Part shown: positions 14,627 through 61,380 of the stretch, piece after piece
Layout of the letters: every line of letters starts with the position of its first letter
Numbering within the stretch: the stretch's first letter is position 1
Source of the DNA: Jeotgalibacillus malaysiensis
GTDB taxonomy: Bacteria > Bacillota > Bacilli > Bacillales > Jeotgalibacillaceae
Direction of reading: 5' to 3'
Assembly: GCA_000818095.1 (NCBI GenBank)
Contig: CP009416.1
Span: 1,906,501-1,970,500 of the forward strand
Length of the DNA stretch: 64,000 nucleotides
Made by a program: the position numbers and the translations under genes
Notes under the pieces: generated by a model
What the model was told of the DNA's origin: nothing
Databases searched by the model: none
The model's input: only the letters and a program-made list of their open reading frames with translations

Positions 14627-14632
14627 CTACTA

Positions 14633-14700
14633 GGATCTAGATTTAACCCCTAAACTCCCTAGATTTCTTTGGCGGCAGAACCCTCTGTCGTCCTTTTTTT
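14633..14700 (+). ncRNA. Candidate small regulatory RNA with C-rich loop
   Basis: About 68 nt, plus strand, between two minus-strand genes. A 6-bp stem (14635-14640 with 14659-14664) exposes an 18-nt loop containing a CCCC run and the start of a CCC run. A second hairpin (14671-14679 with 14684-14692, tetraloop) is followed by seven T residues at 14694-14700, a classic terminator on the plus strand. No plus-strand gene lies upstream, so the terminator needs a transcript of its own. C-rich loops that pair to ribosome-binding sites are known in RoxS/RsaE and FsrA, but I do not recognise this as either. Confidence 0.5.
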
Positions 14701-36174: not shown

Positions 36175-38076
36175 TCAGGCTCTTTTCTCCTTCATTGGAA
36201 CAATTGATCTGATCACCTTTACCGCCTGATCAGCTGTCAGGTCAATTTCTTCTAGCAGTTGATCAACGTTACCATGTTCAATAAACTGATCGGGGATACC
36301 CATCCGCTCGATCGTAGCGTGTGAGATTTTCTGTTCATGCGCAAATTCAAGTACCGCACTGCCAAATCCACCCTGAAGCACTGCTTCTTCTATTGTTAGT
36401 AACGGTATATTGAGATTCAATAGATCCTTAAGCATCGCTTCATCTAGCGGCTTAATAAATCTCGCATTGATCACCCGGACAGAAATCCCTTCATTTCTAA
36501 GCTTTTCAGCTGCTTCAAGTGCCATCGGAATCGTTGTACCAAACGTCAGAATCGCAGCATCATTTCCATCTTTCAGCACTTCCCAGCTGCCAATCGGAAT
36601 CTGATAGAGCTTTTCATCCATTGGGACACCCAGTCCATTTCCTCTTGGGTATCTCATTGCGATCGGACCTTTATCATATGTTAAAGCGGTATGAACCATA
36701 TGCTGGCCTTCATTTTCATCTTTTGGCATCATGACAACCATATTCGGAAGACTTCTCAGGAAAGCAATGTCAAAAACGCCCTGGTGAGTCTCACCATCAG
36801 CGCCAACCAGTCCTGCACGGTCTACACCGATAAATACGTTTAAATTCTGGCGGCAGATATCATGAACAACCTGATCATATGCACGCTGCAGGAACGTTGA
36901 ATAAATTGCGAGAAATGGCTTCATATTCTGGGTAGCAAGCCCGGCAGATAAAGTTGTTGCATGCTGTTCTGCTATTCCCACATCAAACATCCTGTCAGGA
37001 AATTCACTCGCAAAACCTTCCAGCTTAGACCCTACAGGCATTGCAGGTGTCACTGCTACAATCCGTTTATCCGTTCTAGCTTCCTTGCGAACCGTTTCTG
37101 CAACTAAAGCGCTCCAGCCAGGTGCTTTTGCTGAAGATTTAATAATATCACCTGTATCAATTTTATATGGGCCTGTCCCGTGCCATGTTCCGACTGTATC
37201 ATTTTCGGCCGGATGAAACCCTTTACCTTTTTTAGTAATGACATGCAGGATAACAGGACCTTTTGTCTTCTTGGCGTATTTGATATTTTCATCCAGCTCA
37301 TCAAAATTATGCCCGTCTACGGGACCAAGGTAAGTAAAGCCCAGTTCTTCAAAAAACATACCTGATACAAGCAGATATTTCAGACTGTCTTTCACTCTTT
37401 CAGCAGCTGATGCAAGTCTTCCCCCGACTGCCGGAACTTTTTTGATCAGATACTCAAGATCATCTTTTGCTTTATTATATTTACCTGCTGTTCTCATGCG
37501 TCCAAGAACGCTGTGCAAAGCACCAACGTTTGGAGCGATCGACATTTCATTATCATTCAAGACAACAATCATATCTTTCTTTTCATGTCCAATATGATTG
37601 AGTGCTTCAAGTGCCATTCCACCCGTCAAAGCACCATCACCGATAATTGGTACAACAAAATTGCTGTCGCCTTTAATATCACGTGCAATTGCCATTCCCA
37701 TGGCAGCTGAAAGCGAAGTGGAGCTATGACCTGTTTCCCATACGTCATGCTCACTTTCAATCATTTTTGGAAAACCGCACAGCCCTTTATATTGTCTGAG
37801 CGTATCAAATTGATCAGCACGTCCTGTCAGGATTTTATGAACATATGATTGATGCCCGACGTCCCAAAGGAACTTATCAAACGGACTGTCAAAATGCTTA
37901 TGAAGGGCAAGTGTTAATTCAACAACACCGAGATTTGGTCCGATATGCCCTCCTGTTGCTGATAATTTTTCAATCAGAAACGTGCGAATCTCTTCACTCA
38001 ATTCAATTAACTGTTCCTTATTCATGTCTTTCAGAAAACCAGGGTCTTTTATCTGATTTATCTCCACCCGGATCAC
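36175..38076 (-). CDS. dxs: 1-deoxy-D-xylulose-5-phosphate synthase
   Basis: First step of the MEP isoprenoid pathway: condenses pyruvate and glyceraldehyde 3-phosphate. Thiamine enzyme with [31 protein letters not shown], the ThDP motif [16 protein letters not shown]…[18 protein letters not shown] and [17 protein letters not shown]. 633 residues. GTG 38076 with GGAG 7 nt upstream is the likely start. Together with ispA it provides isoprenoid precursors; oapA and the OLE RNA lie between them. Confidence 0.96.
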
Positions 38077-38139: not shown

Positions 38140-38727
38140 CTATTTCGATTTCTTTGTATCTTTAATTATAACAATGTGTAGCTTTTCCTCAAGAAATTGT
38201 AGGGTTTTTCCCACCCTGAATATGATATCCCTGGAAAAAGTGATTGCAAGAGACTTCCCCATTGCTTTTCCACCAACAGTGAGCGCAGCAATCAGACTTG
38301 TGAGGCCAATATTGATAGAACTCTCAACTAAAGAGCCCTGGCCCAGCTGTAGTTCATTAGCCAGCTGTATAATTACGATTGCCGCAGCCGCTCCGCTGAT
38401 TATACCTGCTATATCCCCTATAACATCGTTACAGAAACTTGCAAAGCGGTCTGCGTTTCTGACAATCCGGATCGCATGCTTGGCTCCATATACTTTTTTA
38501 GCTGCCATTGCGTGAAACGGTTTTTCTTCCCCCGCTGCAGCTGCAATGCCCAGCATATCAAAAAATACGCCAATGATGACGATCATCAATACGACAATGA
38601 GTCCTACAGTCCAGTTCACCTGGTTAAGTATACTTGTCGAAAGAAGTGAAAAAATAGCCGCTAACACACCTGTGATAACGGCTATCGTAACACTCCACTT
38701 TATTGTTTTATGTAAGAAGCTGTTCAC
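38140..38727 (-). CDS. oapA: OLE-associated protein OapA
   Basis: A 195-residue membrane protein with about four hydrophobic segments (residues 11-34, 41-65, 102-123 and 138-164). Between the second and third is a basic, conserved-looking stretch (AAKKVYGAKHAIRIVRNADRFASFC) and the DxxxD motif DVIGD at 101-105. Position directly downstream of the OLE RNA and upstream of dxs is that of OapA, the protein that binds OLE RNA and takes it to the membrane. The start is GTG, 9 nt after AGGTG, just past the RNA's 3' end. Identification is by context plus topology. Confidence 0.85.
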   Translation of the reverse strand: MNSFLHKTIKWSVTIAVITGVLAAIFSLLSTSILNQVNWTVGLIVVLMIVIIGVFFDMLGIAAAAGEEKPFHAMAAKKVYGAKHAIRIVRNADRFASFCNDVIGDIAGIISGAAAAIVIIQLANELQLGQGSLVESSINIGLTSLIAALTVGGKAMGKSLAITFSRDIIFRVGKTLQFLEEKLHIVIIKDTKKSK

Positions 38728-38753
38728 TTTATATCACACCTAACAAAAATAAA

Positions 38754-39345
38754 GGGGTGGTCGTGATCAGAGTTAACATTACGGCTTAGGTCCAGTAGGT
38801 TTTCCCAATTCGACACCAGCTGTTGCCATACTGGCGGTTTCCCATTATACCGAATTCGGCAGGGTTTCCCGCTGCCGGACTGGATTACCACTTAGTCCGC
38901 ACTCTAATCCTCTGAACACGTGTGCGTACAGTCTAGGGGATTTCCCCGGCAGCCCTGATCCAGATTCCTTATCCTCTTTTGCAGAAAGGATTTCATACGG
39001 ACTGAAAAGAACATATTAATGGCCAACTAATGTGTTCTCTGTAACCATAATCCCCTCACCTTCCACTCAAGGCAGGCTACGCTGCGGCTGATTGTCATCA
39101 CTTCCGCAGGGTTATACAATCATTCACCTGCATATGCTTTATGCCAGCTGTAAATGAAAGCCTCCGCGGTAAGCGGGTCATCGCCCACATGCCATTGTGG
39201 ATCGCCCGCAAACCTTACTCCCAGAAAAAGCCCAAAGCTGGGCGCCTCAAGCCTAAACCAGGAACTTCATCGATATGCCCTTTAGTGGATTTTTAGGCCC
39301 ACCTTCGGAAACGGCGGACTGACTAGAATACTGCACCACCCATTG
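38754..39345 (-). ncRNA. ole: OLE RNA (ornate, large, extremophilic)
   Basis: The 662-bp gap between ispA and oapA has no ORF but is dense in conserved-looking, structured sequence. A promoter ends just before 39350, and near the 5' end GGGTGGT (39341-39335) pairs perfectly with ACCACCC near the 3' end (38761-38755), closing a molecule of about 590 nt. Length, orientation and the ispA-ole-oapA-dxs order match OLE RNAs of extremophilic and anaerobic Bacillota. These form a membrane RNP linked to alcohol, cold and Mg2+ stress. I considered RNase P RNA and tmRNA and rejected both. Confidence 0.85.
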
Positions 39346-39350
39346 AGGGA

Positions 39351-39380
39351 AGTATAACATATTCATTTTTCTTATGTCTT
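39351..39380 (-). promoter_or_regulatory. Internal promoter for OLE RNA
   Basis: On the minus strand AAGACA (39380-39375), 18 bp, TATACT (39356-39351), just after the ispA stop; transcription would start at about 39345-39348. Confidence 0.55.
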
Positions 39381-39389
39381 GTGATAAAC

Positions 39390-40268
39390 TCAGTTTTTTC
39401 TGCTGCCAATCAGATCAGTCAATTCCAGGAGCAACGCGGGTTCATTATGCAGTTCATACAGCAGTTCCCGAGCTTTATAAAGGTGATCATCCAACTTTTC
39501 CTTCGCAGATTGCATTCCCAAAATTGCAGGGTAAGTACTTTTTTGCCGCCCTTCATCACTGCCAACAGGTTTACCGATTTCTGCTTCATCACCTTCAATA
39601 TCCAGAATGTCATCCCTGATTTGAAAAGCAAGCCCAATATGCTCGGCGAAAAGCCGGAGTTTATTTAGTTCATGTTCATCAAGCCCACTGATCACGCCAC
39701 CTGCAACAGCTGCAAACTCCAGCAGCTTTCCCGTTTTTCTTTTATGAACGGATTCAAGCTGTTCAAGTGAAAGTGCCATTGATTCACCTTCTATATCTGC
39801 AACCTGACCGCCCACCATTCCTTCAGCTCCTGCTGCTTTTGACAGCATAGAAATAATTTTCACCTTAGATCTGTCATCAAACGGAGAATCAGCAACCAGT
39901 TCAAAGCTTTTGGTAAGCAGTGCATCTCCAGATAAGATGGCAACAGCTTCACCATATACTTTATGATTGGTTGGCAAGCCTCTTCTCAAATCATCATCAT
40001 CCATACTCGGCAGATCATCGTGAATCAGAGAATACGTATGGATCATTTCAAGTGCTGCAGCGGTTTTAAGTCCCTGTTCCGTTTCATTACCGAACGTCTC
40101 CATTACTGCTAAAAGCAAAAGCGGCCGGATTCTTTTGCCACCCGCTTTTAAAGAATACAGCATTGATTCTTTCAGCGATTCAGGCGCTTCTAAAGCGGTG
40201 ACGGCTGAAAATAATTCTTCTTCTACTTTGCTTTTTTGAAGGCTTGTAAAATGTCCAAGTGCATTCAT
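39390..40268 (-). CDS. ispA: Farnesyl diphosphate synthase (polyprenyl synthetase)
   Basis: Condenses IPP with DMAPP and GPP to farnesyl diphosphate. First aspartate-rich motif [17 protein letters not shown] and second motif [13 protein letters not shown] are intact, with [12 protein letters not shown] and [14 protein letters not shown] between. 292 residues. It overlaps xseB by 4 nt, within the xseA-xseB-ispA operon. Confidence 0.96.
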
Positions 40269-43506: not shown

Positions 43507-43920
43507 TTATTCTTTATCTTCTTCTTCAGTCTTCACTGTTTCAAATTGAATTCCTACAACGTGAATATTCACTTCGTCAGCTTCAAGTGCTGTCATATTG
43601 AGCAGTGTCTGGCGGATATTATCCTGCAGCTTTTGAGCAACTTCAGGAATAGCCGCACCGAATTTCACTGTACAGTATACATCAAGTACGATTCCTTCAT
43701 CACCAAGCTCCACTTTAATTCCCTTGCCGTGATTTTTTTTGCCAAGTCGTTCTGCAACACCTGAGGCGAAGTTTCCTCTCATCTGAGCGATCCCATCTAC
43801 CTCTGATGCAGCAATACCGGCGATCACTTCGATTACTTCAGGCGCAATTTCAACTTTTCCAAGCTGGTTTTGCGCAATGCTGCTCATTTGCAGTAGATTA
43901 TTTTCGTTTTCAGCAGTCAT
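43507..43920 (-). CDS. Asp23/Gls24 family envelope stress protein (YqhY)
   Basis: A 137-residue Asp23-domain protein: LGKVEIAPEVIEVIAGIAASEVDGIAQM, GIKVELGDEGIVLDVYCTVKFGAAIPEVAQKLQDNIRQ and an acidic tail. Family members attach to the membrane or cell-envelope machinery. B. subtilis YqhY, in the same place after accBC, is linked to control of acetyl-CoA carboxylase and lipid synthesis. It lies 12 bp after accC, in one operon accB-accC-asp23. Confidence 0.92.
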   Translation of the reverse strand: MTAENENNLLQMSSIAQNQLGKVEIAPEVIEVIAGIAASEVDGIAQMRGNFASGVAERLGKKNHGKGIKVELGDEGIVLDVYCTVKFGAAIPEVAQKLQDNIRQTLLNMTALEADEVNIHVVGIQFETVKTEEEDKE

Positions 43921-61171: not shown

Positions 61172-61380
61172 AAAAAAGGACAGGGATACCCCTTTTGATA
61201 ACGGGTCCCTGTCCTTTTCACCTGAAAGTTTTACCTTGCGGCTTTCCTCTTTGGTGGTTTCATCTAATGAGAAACACTCTCCAGAGTTGCGTCCGGCAGA
61301 AGTCTTTTTGCCTGAGAGATTCACGGATCTGTTTGCTCCTTCGGCGCTCTTTGTAAAAGAGTCTCTCCCTCTGCTTTCAT
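61172..61380 (-). promoter_or_regulatory. Tandem glycine riboswitch with terminator
   Basis: On the minus strand aptamer 1 shows GCGCCGAAGGAGCAA, TCTCAGGCAAAAAGAC and GGACGCAACTCTGGAGAG. Aptamer 2 shows ACCACCAAAGAGGAAAGCCG and CTTTCAGGTGAAAAGGAC. A 13-bp intrinsic terminator (61174-61186 with 61206-61218) with a T run follows. Its 5' arm overlaps the end of aptamer 2, so glycine binding would favour read-through into gcvT-gcvPA-gcvPB. Confidence 0.93.

Follow-up and report, generated by a model that had tools for sequence, protein, structure and literature searches.

Background

OLE is among the largest bacterial RNAs without known function. In passages of two published accounts, the RNA is described as very abundant, as having its own promoter within an operon and as reaching a length of about 630 nt presumably through processing (PMC9723947, PMC12054373). 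Another source, available in part, places two partial sites for the protein OapA in or near P2 and P4a of OLE and lists the YqhY gene as OLE-associated (PMC12265935), while an excerpt of a further paper describes OapA and MpfA as related (PMC11332333). Among systems unconnected with OLE, the bmrB leader of B. subtilis is described, in the accessible part of the source, as an intrinsic terminator within a coding region that is subject to ribosome-mediated attenuation (PMC4191407).

Here we describe an OLE locus of Jeotgalibacillus malaysiensis and a hairpin located inside its oapA gene. The DNA analyzed, hereafter the window, is a stretch of 64,000 nucleotides from a genome of 4.12 Mb in two contigs. 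A search of PubMed Central found nothing joining OLE with Jeotgalibacillus.

Results

The OLE-OapA locus

A preliminary description of the window had assigned the interval 38140-39389, which consists of oapA and the gap between ispA and oapA, to OLE RNA and its protein partner. The gene order is ispA-ole-oapA-dxs, with the following features.

39390..40268, minus strand: ispA, the upstream neighbour (farnesyl diphosphate synthase model)
39351..39380, minus strand: promoter-like site of ole, i.e., AAGACA (39380-39375), 18 nt, TATACT (39356-39351), with TG before the latter
38741..39355, minus strand: OLE RNA, full length (Rfam RF01071)
39335..39341, minus strand: GGGTGGT, presumed P1 5' strand, covarying with the 3' strand
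39321..39326, minus strand: CTAGTC, with a CTAG palindrome, at P2; present in 83/83 OLE rows
39269..39274, minus strand: ATCGAT palindrome near P4a; present in 82/83 OLE rows
38755..38761, minus strand: ACCACCC, presumed P1 3' strand, covarying with the 5' strand
38140..38727, minus strand: oapA, GTG start, 195 aa, putative membrane protein partner of OLE
36175..38076, minus strand: dxs, the downstream neighbour

The identification of OLE was confirmed by a match to the Rfam model over its full length (positions 1-616; 470.5 bits, E = 6e-135, gathering score 50), and the window RNA agrees with 82 other OLE RNAs at 260 of the 261 columns with a conservation of at least 97% among them. The gap that had been described as free of ORFs extends over 662 bp, from the ispA stop (39390) to the oapA start (38727), and contains no ORF of at least 60 aa. 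The two heptamers, GGGTGGT (39341-39335) and ACCACCC (38761-38755), are found exactly where the preliminary description had located them, and their proposed long-range pairing is borne out by an alignment of 83 OLE RNAs (six loci, L094-L096 and L099-L101, were dropped before all 83-row counts as they represent the same contigs as other loci). In this alignment, 563 of 579 cells were paired and 57 two-sided changes were observed, as compared to maxima of 539 cells and 35 two-sided changes in 500 shuffles and of 372 cells in six slid versions of the helix; both controls leave the kinship of the OLE sequences in place. We take this long-range terminal helix, which is unpaired in the Rfam OLE consensus, to be P1 of OLE.

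A promoter after ispA had also been proposed. The AAGACA-18 nt-TATACT site is present, with a transcript start predicted near 39344, and an extended -10 element (at least 7 of 8 bases, at most 60 nt upstream of OLE) was found in 82/83 rows as compared to 6/83 shuffled sequences; a promoter motif scan of the region alone showed no excess over chance (4 sites versus 2.9 expected). The CTAGTC motif at P2 may correspond to one of the two partial OapA sites described in the literature and ATCGAT near P4a to the second, both assignments being made here. Overall, the OLE-OapA locus is genuine, intact and ordinary, and on its own it adds a new member to a known class.

OapA and related proteins

Among the protein relatives of the oapA product, of which the best 80 of 557 were kept, OLE was located directly upstream of the gene in 80/80, as would be expected for OapA; the closest named relatives were from Jeotgalibacillus species (80-94% identity). 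The four-helix protein with a DxxxD motif that had been read from the sequence is also apparent in a structure model (mean pLDDT 78; membrane placement is not part of the prediction), which is nearly all helical with four long helices (residues 2-35, 39-65, 92-125 and 133-163). The motif is present as D101-x3-D105, and both aspartates are invariant in 33 aligned OapA; following the earlier description, we take DxxxD to be a hallmark of OapA. The CNNM profile scored weakly against the oapA region (13.6 bits, under the cut-off of 28.4). A PDB structure search with the OapA model yielded no match at E ≤ 0.001, and its two best matches were chains of MtCorB, a CNNM protein (E = 0.02, with a probability of 1.00, and E = 0.03). 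The weak profile score and the MtCorB matches agree with the relationship between OapA and MpfA described in the literature.

The genes for OapB and for an OapC/YbxF-type protein lie in other parts of the genome. The best PDB match of the former was 7k9b (E = 3e-28), and the latter has 87 aa and a Pfam L7Ae domain; from the position before rpsL, we read this 87-aa protein, and not the second L7Ae match, as the YbxF paralogue. The same genome encodes five CNNM proteins, four of them with full MpfA architecture, which thus coexist with OLE.

Three further observations concern other parts of the window. The ORF at 43507-43920 (minus strand) resembles YqhY in our own reading. A tandem glycine riboswitch is present at 61207-61380 (minus strand), with two aptamers scoring 76.2 and 40.4 bits, and a match to sbrA, a Listeria sRNA family, occurs outside Listeria at 14631-14700 (plus strand; 46.9 bits versus a threshold of 45).

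A conserved hairpin inside oapA

The 5' part of oapA contains a hairpin that is followed by a T-run; the preliminary description makes no mention of this element.

38657..38682, minus strand: hairpin core GCCGTTATCAC-AGGT-GTGTTAGCGGC, oapA codons 16-24
38649..38654, minus strand: T-run TTTTTT after the hairpin; 6 or more T among 8 bases in 83/83 oapA genes

The consensus is GCCGTTATCAC-n4-GTGnTAGCGGC, then the T-run (oapA codons 16-24, or 16-26 with the T-run). The 21 fixed bases of this consensus showed no mismatches in 81/83 oapA genes and one mismatch in 2/83, among proteins with identities down to 57%; the six peptide patterns used to gather the oapA genes fall outside the element. In 32 oapA genes with less than 75% DNA identity, the same-codon fraction in the top 8-codon window was 0.88 as compared to 0.32 expected. 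Synonymous conservation reached z = 17 to 36 in 8-codon windows starting at oapA codons 11 to 24, as compared to a gene median of 1.4 and a maximum of 4.8 over 200 permutations.

The hairpin of the window folds with -12.9 kcal/mol as compared to a mean of -4.7 for synonymous recodings, and for each of 32 representatives the native fold energy was matched by only 0-2 of 200 synonymous recodings. In a further fold the hairpin reaches -18.8 kcal/mol (z = -5.3), and with the 6 T that follow, it looks like an intrinsic terminator in form; some members have a short T-run (AATTTTC). The stem holds a U.G pair and a 1x1 mismatch. Rfam contains no such family, and no Rfam match above the gathering score was found at the hairpin.

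Intrinsic terminator sequences are expected to drift. Identical hairpin elements were removed before the alignment (A1). The ten core pairs show zero two-sided changes, including three pairs that, in our reading, could vary synonymously. Covariation is seen only in the outer pairs, and the outer pair adjoining the core is unpaired in 51/81 rows. As the core pairs of a plain terminator should drift and those of this hairpin do not, terminator function alone fails to explain the frozen sequence, and selection on the hairpin seems to exceed what the fold alone would demand.

In the part of the PubMed Central literature that was covered, no mention of this hairpin was found, and an earlier mention is possible. 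In one OLE paper found there, the passages on a terminator concern a ykoY riboswitch.

Distribution of the hairpin with and without OLE

With at most 2 mismatches, the hairpin pattern was found in 13 of 299 class genomes, with one copy in each, and the backwards pattern had no matches among the class genomes listed at the same threshold; related species are not independent in this or any other count of hairpins or OLE. Eight of these 13 genomes have OLE and carry the hairpin in oapA, and the other five, which lack OLE and oapA at the locus, carry it between ispA and dxs with 0 mismatches. Among the 70 genomes of the class draw that have OLE, no more than 8 showed the hairpin at this threshold, so that most OLE loci of the draw do without it. 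A hairpin model run on 60 OLE loci (phylum and class draws) recovered four hairpins of the window type, plus one further locus with a weak score (L185, E = 0.004). For the window's order, which is represented by 27 genomes in the class draw, the hairpin was present in 4/4 OLE-bearing genomes and kept in 4/23 OLE-less genomes (6/23 if the variant described below is counted). Retention of the hairpin after OLE loss is a minority outcome; most OLE-less relatives lost it.

In an order-level draw, 289 of 397 genomes matched at up to 3 mismatches, chance matches included; the backwards control matched approx. 27 genomes (by eye) in this tally, and we relied on cases with 0-1 mismatches and on the shared variant. 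We read 61 loci, which are pattern matches with coordinates and not a random sample; 45 have OLE and 16 do not. The hairpin lies in an open oapA frame in 44/45 OLE-bearing loci; in the remaining one (L168, genome G422), which has OLE and the hairpin, the oapA stretch aligned to the window's OapA fails the open-frame check, probably because of a stop. Of the 16 OLE-less loci, one was a chance match elsewhere, and 15, which were chosen by matching, have the hairpin or its variant in the ispA-dxs gap. All 15 have an extended -10 element (at least 7 of 8 bases, at most 110 nt upstream), as compared to 32/300 shuffles, and show 4-9 T in the 10 nt after the hairpin; the distance from the promoter-like site to the hairpin is 15-83 nt in these loci as compared to about 670 nt in the window. 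A shared variant, with the mismatch shifted by one position and the helix kept, occurs in five of these 15 loci.

Recent common ancestry of the whole gap was mostly rejected as an explanation for these similarities, as upstream flanks were 61-81% alike between families (11 OLE-less loci, permissive alignment) with a shuffled baseline of 72%. Some OLE-less pairs had downstream flanks that were 83-90% alike, partly from running into dxs. Pairing between hairpin and OLE was also set aside as a cause of the invariance, as the sequence is kept in OLE-less species. Overall, it is the frozen hairpin inside oapA, occurring across the order and outliving OLE in some species, that may be new at this locus.

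Losses of OLE within Jeotgalibacillus

OLE was found in 9 of 12 Jeotgalibacillus genomes (G000-G011). The other three, G002, G009 and G007, have lost OLE and no longer have an intact oapA, and an Rfam search of their ispA-dxs gaps found no OLE match. In these decayed loci (L127, L128 and L129, respectively), pieces of the oapA region are still recognisable in the ispA-dxs gap (E = 8e-11, 4e-12 and 2e-27, respectively, as compared to a best value of 0.26 in 60 shuffled gaps). According to a tree of flanking proteins, OLE was lost twice within the genus. G002 and G009 keep the hairpin and T-run from the 5' part of oapA; G007 lost the hairpin.

CNNM proteins are encoded in all 12 genomes, with 3-8 in those with OLE (the count of 8, for G005, may include an assembly duplicate) and 4, 4 and 5 in those without. 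As these counts are alike with and without OLE, replacement of OLE by MpfA within the genus was rejected; CNNM proteins as counted here are a broader group than the published definition of MpfA. The occurrence of 3-8 CNNM/MpfA-type proteins regardless of OLE departs from the published tendency. With two losses in one genus and several MpfA-type genes throughout, Jeotgalibacillus offers a natural comparison for the role of OLE.

Discussion

Proposed role of the hairpin

Judging from the sequences, we consider it probable that the abundant OLE transcript ends at the hairpin, which would act as an intrinsic terminator, that the 3' end of this transcript is trimmed, and that oapA is expressed via read-through. 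A promoter at the ispA end would drive OLE RNA, with oapA next, and the hairpin would stop the OLE transcript about 690-700 nt past its start, after which the 3' end would be trimmed to that of mature OLE. The gene oapA, whose start codon precedes the hairpin, would be made only by polymerases reading through, and a single promoter would thus yield much OLE RNA and little oapA mRNA. We conjecture that a recognising factor might tune read-through at the hairpin. As B. subtilis RNA polymerase outruns ribosomes according to an excerpt of a published report (PMC13323073), a hairpin this early in a gene would be exposed.

Other OLE lineages were informative with regard to this role. After the four loci sharing the oapA element were dropped, 56 OLE loci of other lineages were left, and 22 of these showed a terminator-like hairpin (-9 kcal/mol or better) within 160 nt after OLE; the corresponding numbers were 8/56 and 4/56 in the next two windows, 1/56 in antisense and 12/280 in shuffles. 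In a wider scan, 30 of 37 terminator-like hairpins were located inside the oapA start, including four that represent the window-type element. These unrelated hairpins, located where the window has its own, speak for an RNA terminator, as does the T-rich stretch that is kept after the core in non-coding loci. Among these lineages, oapA starts with their own, differing hairpin sequences were seen in L186, L187 and L190, in L197-L199 and L210, and in L183, L192 and L208.

Alternative explanations

It is possible, albeit somewhat unlikely, that the hairpin represents a 3' processing or stability signal or the site of an RNA-binding protein and that termination is secondary. The exact stem is kept, and its U.G pair and 1x1 mismatch could be recognised; moreover, one publication presumes that processing yields an OLE of about 630 nt (PMC9723947), in which case a terminator would not be required. 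On the other hand, the T-run is kept as well, and OLE-less species hold no OLE to process.

The latter species bear on a second, rather doubtful possibility, i.e., that the hairpin could be a sequence-specific, protein-controlled attenuator that acts independently of OLE and, in the window's order, overlaps the oapA codons, with a partner setting the passage of polymerase into oapA and dxs. That the hairpin is kept in some lineages without OLE and oapA argues for a role that is not tied to OLE alone, and its near-invariant sequence suggests a recognising factor. If such an attenuator existed, one switch would fix the ratio of OLE RNA to OapA, and the promoter and hairpin of OLE-less loci could survive in the ispA-dxs gap as a very small, independent control RNA.

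We regard as unlikely a role of the hairpin that is unrelated to OLE and limited to insulating dxs from the ispA operon. Retention between ispA and dxs in some OLE-less loci would fit such a role, as would promoter-like sites for dxs beyond the hairpin, which occur both in the window and among the Jeotgalibacillus remnants; the site in the window is as follows.

38165..38192, minus strand: promoter-like TTGAGG, 16 nt, TATAAT with a preceding TG, within the oapA 3' end; candidate promoter of dxs

Its spacing recurs in the decayed gaps of all three OLE-less Jeotgalibacillus genomes (read by eye). However, in 45 OLE-bearing loci the hairpin lies downstream of OLE and its promoter and would thus meet OLE transcripts too, and a hairpin is placed there in other OLE lineages as well.

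That the inverted repeat is a DNA operator bound by a dimeric transcription factor, and not an RNA hairpin, appears quite improbable, even though a frozen, nearly dyad-symmetric sequence with a core free of compensatory changes is what an operator would show. The T-richness is one-sided, also where the element is non-coding (4-9 T after the core as compared to 0-6 on the opposite side, read on the opposite strand, 17 loci), and the arms show an invariant T/G asymmetry, which would form a wobble pair in RNA. The distance to the upstream promoter-like site is not fixed (15-83 nt in OLE-less loci, about 670 nt in the window), and the single copy in each of 13 class genomes (at most 2 mismatches) leaves no regulon. 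Both the variant lineage, which shifts the mismatch by one step and keeps the helix, and the hairpins of unrelated sequence that other OLE lineages have at this position also argue against an operator.

Finally, a requirement of the first membrane helix of OapA for the peptide AVITxVLAAxF was rejected as the cause of the conserved stretch: eight of its residues are invariant in 33 aligned OapA and the peptide is readable in most of 11 translated OLE-less remnants, but synonymous positions are frozen too, both translated variant remnants have an in-frame stop inside the element, and the majority share at OapA residues 16-26 drops from 0.96 in 33 OapA with the element to 0.45 in 54 OapA of other lineages (0.92 versus 0.72 for the protein core; two loci without an OapA match were dropped), so that the protein sequence there seems to be set by the nucleotides.

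A candidate control element between OLE and oapA provides a direct, testable handle on the making of the OLE complex. A hidden element of this kind would account for a stretch of OapA being invariant in some lineages only, and the hairpin is worth considering when oapA is recoded, deleted or expressed from a plasmid.

Comparison with known systems

With regard to the described OLE system (RF01071 with OapA, OapB and OapC), the locus has the same full-length RNA, partner genes, gene order and conserved nucleotides, and we see no essential difference; the host is a Jeotgalibacillus in which four MpfA proteins of full architecture coexist with OLE. OapA resembles the MpfA/CorC (CNNM) transporters in its weak CNNM profile score and its MtCorB matches, but no CBS or CorC_HlyC domain was found in it.

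The bmrB leader, as far as the accessible part of its description goes, is similar in that a terminator-like hairpin within an ORF has to be passed for downstream expression. In bmrB, however, the ORF is a small leader, whereas here it is the gene for a membrane protein behind a large structured RNA; unlike that of bmrB, the hairpin in oapA is frozen in sequence over many genera. Ordinary intrinsic terminators share the stem, the short loop and the T-run with the oapA hairpin, but they would be expected to drift, whereas the oapA hairpin retains 21/21 fixed positions in 81/83 oapA genes.
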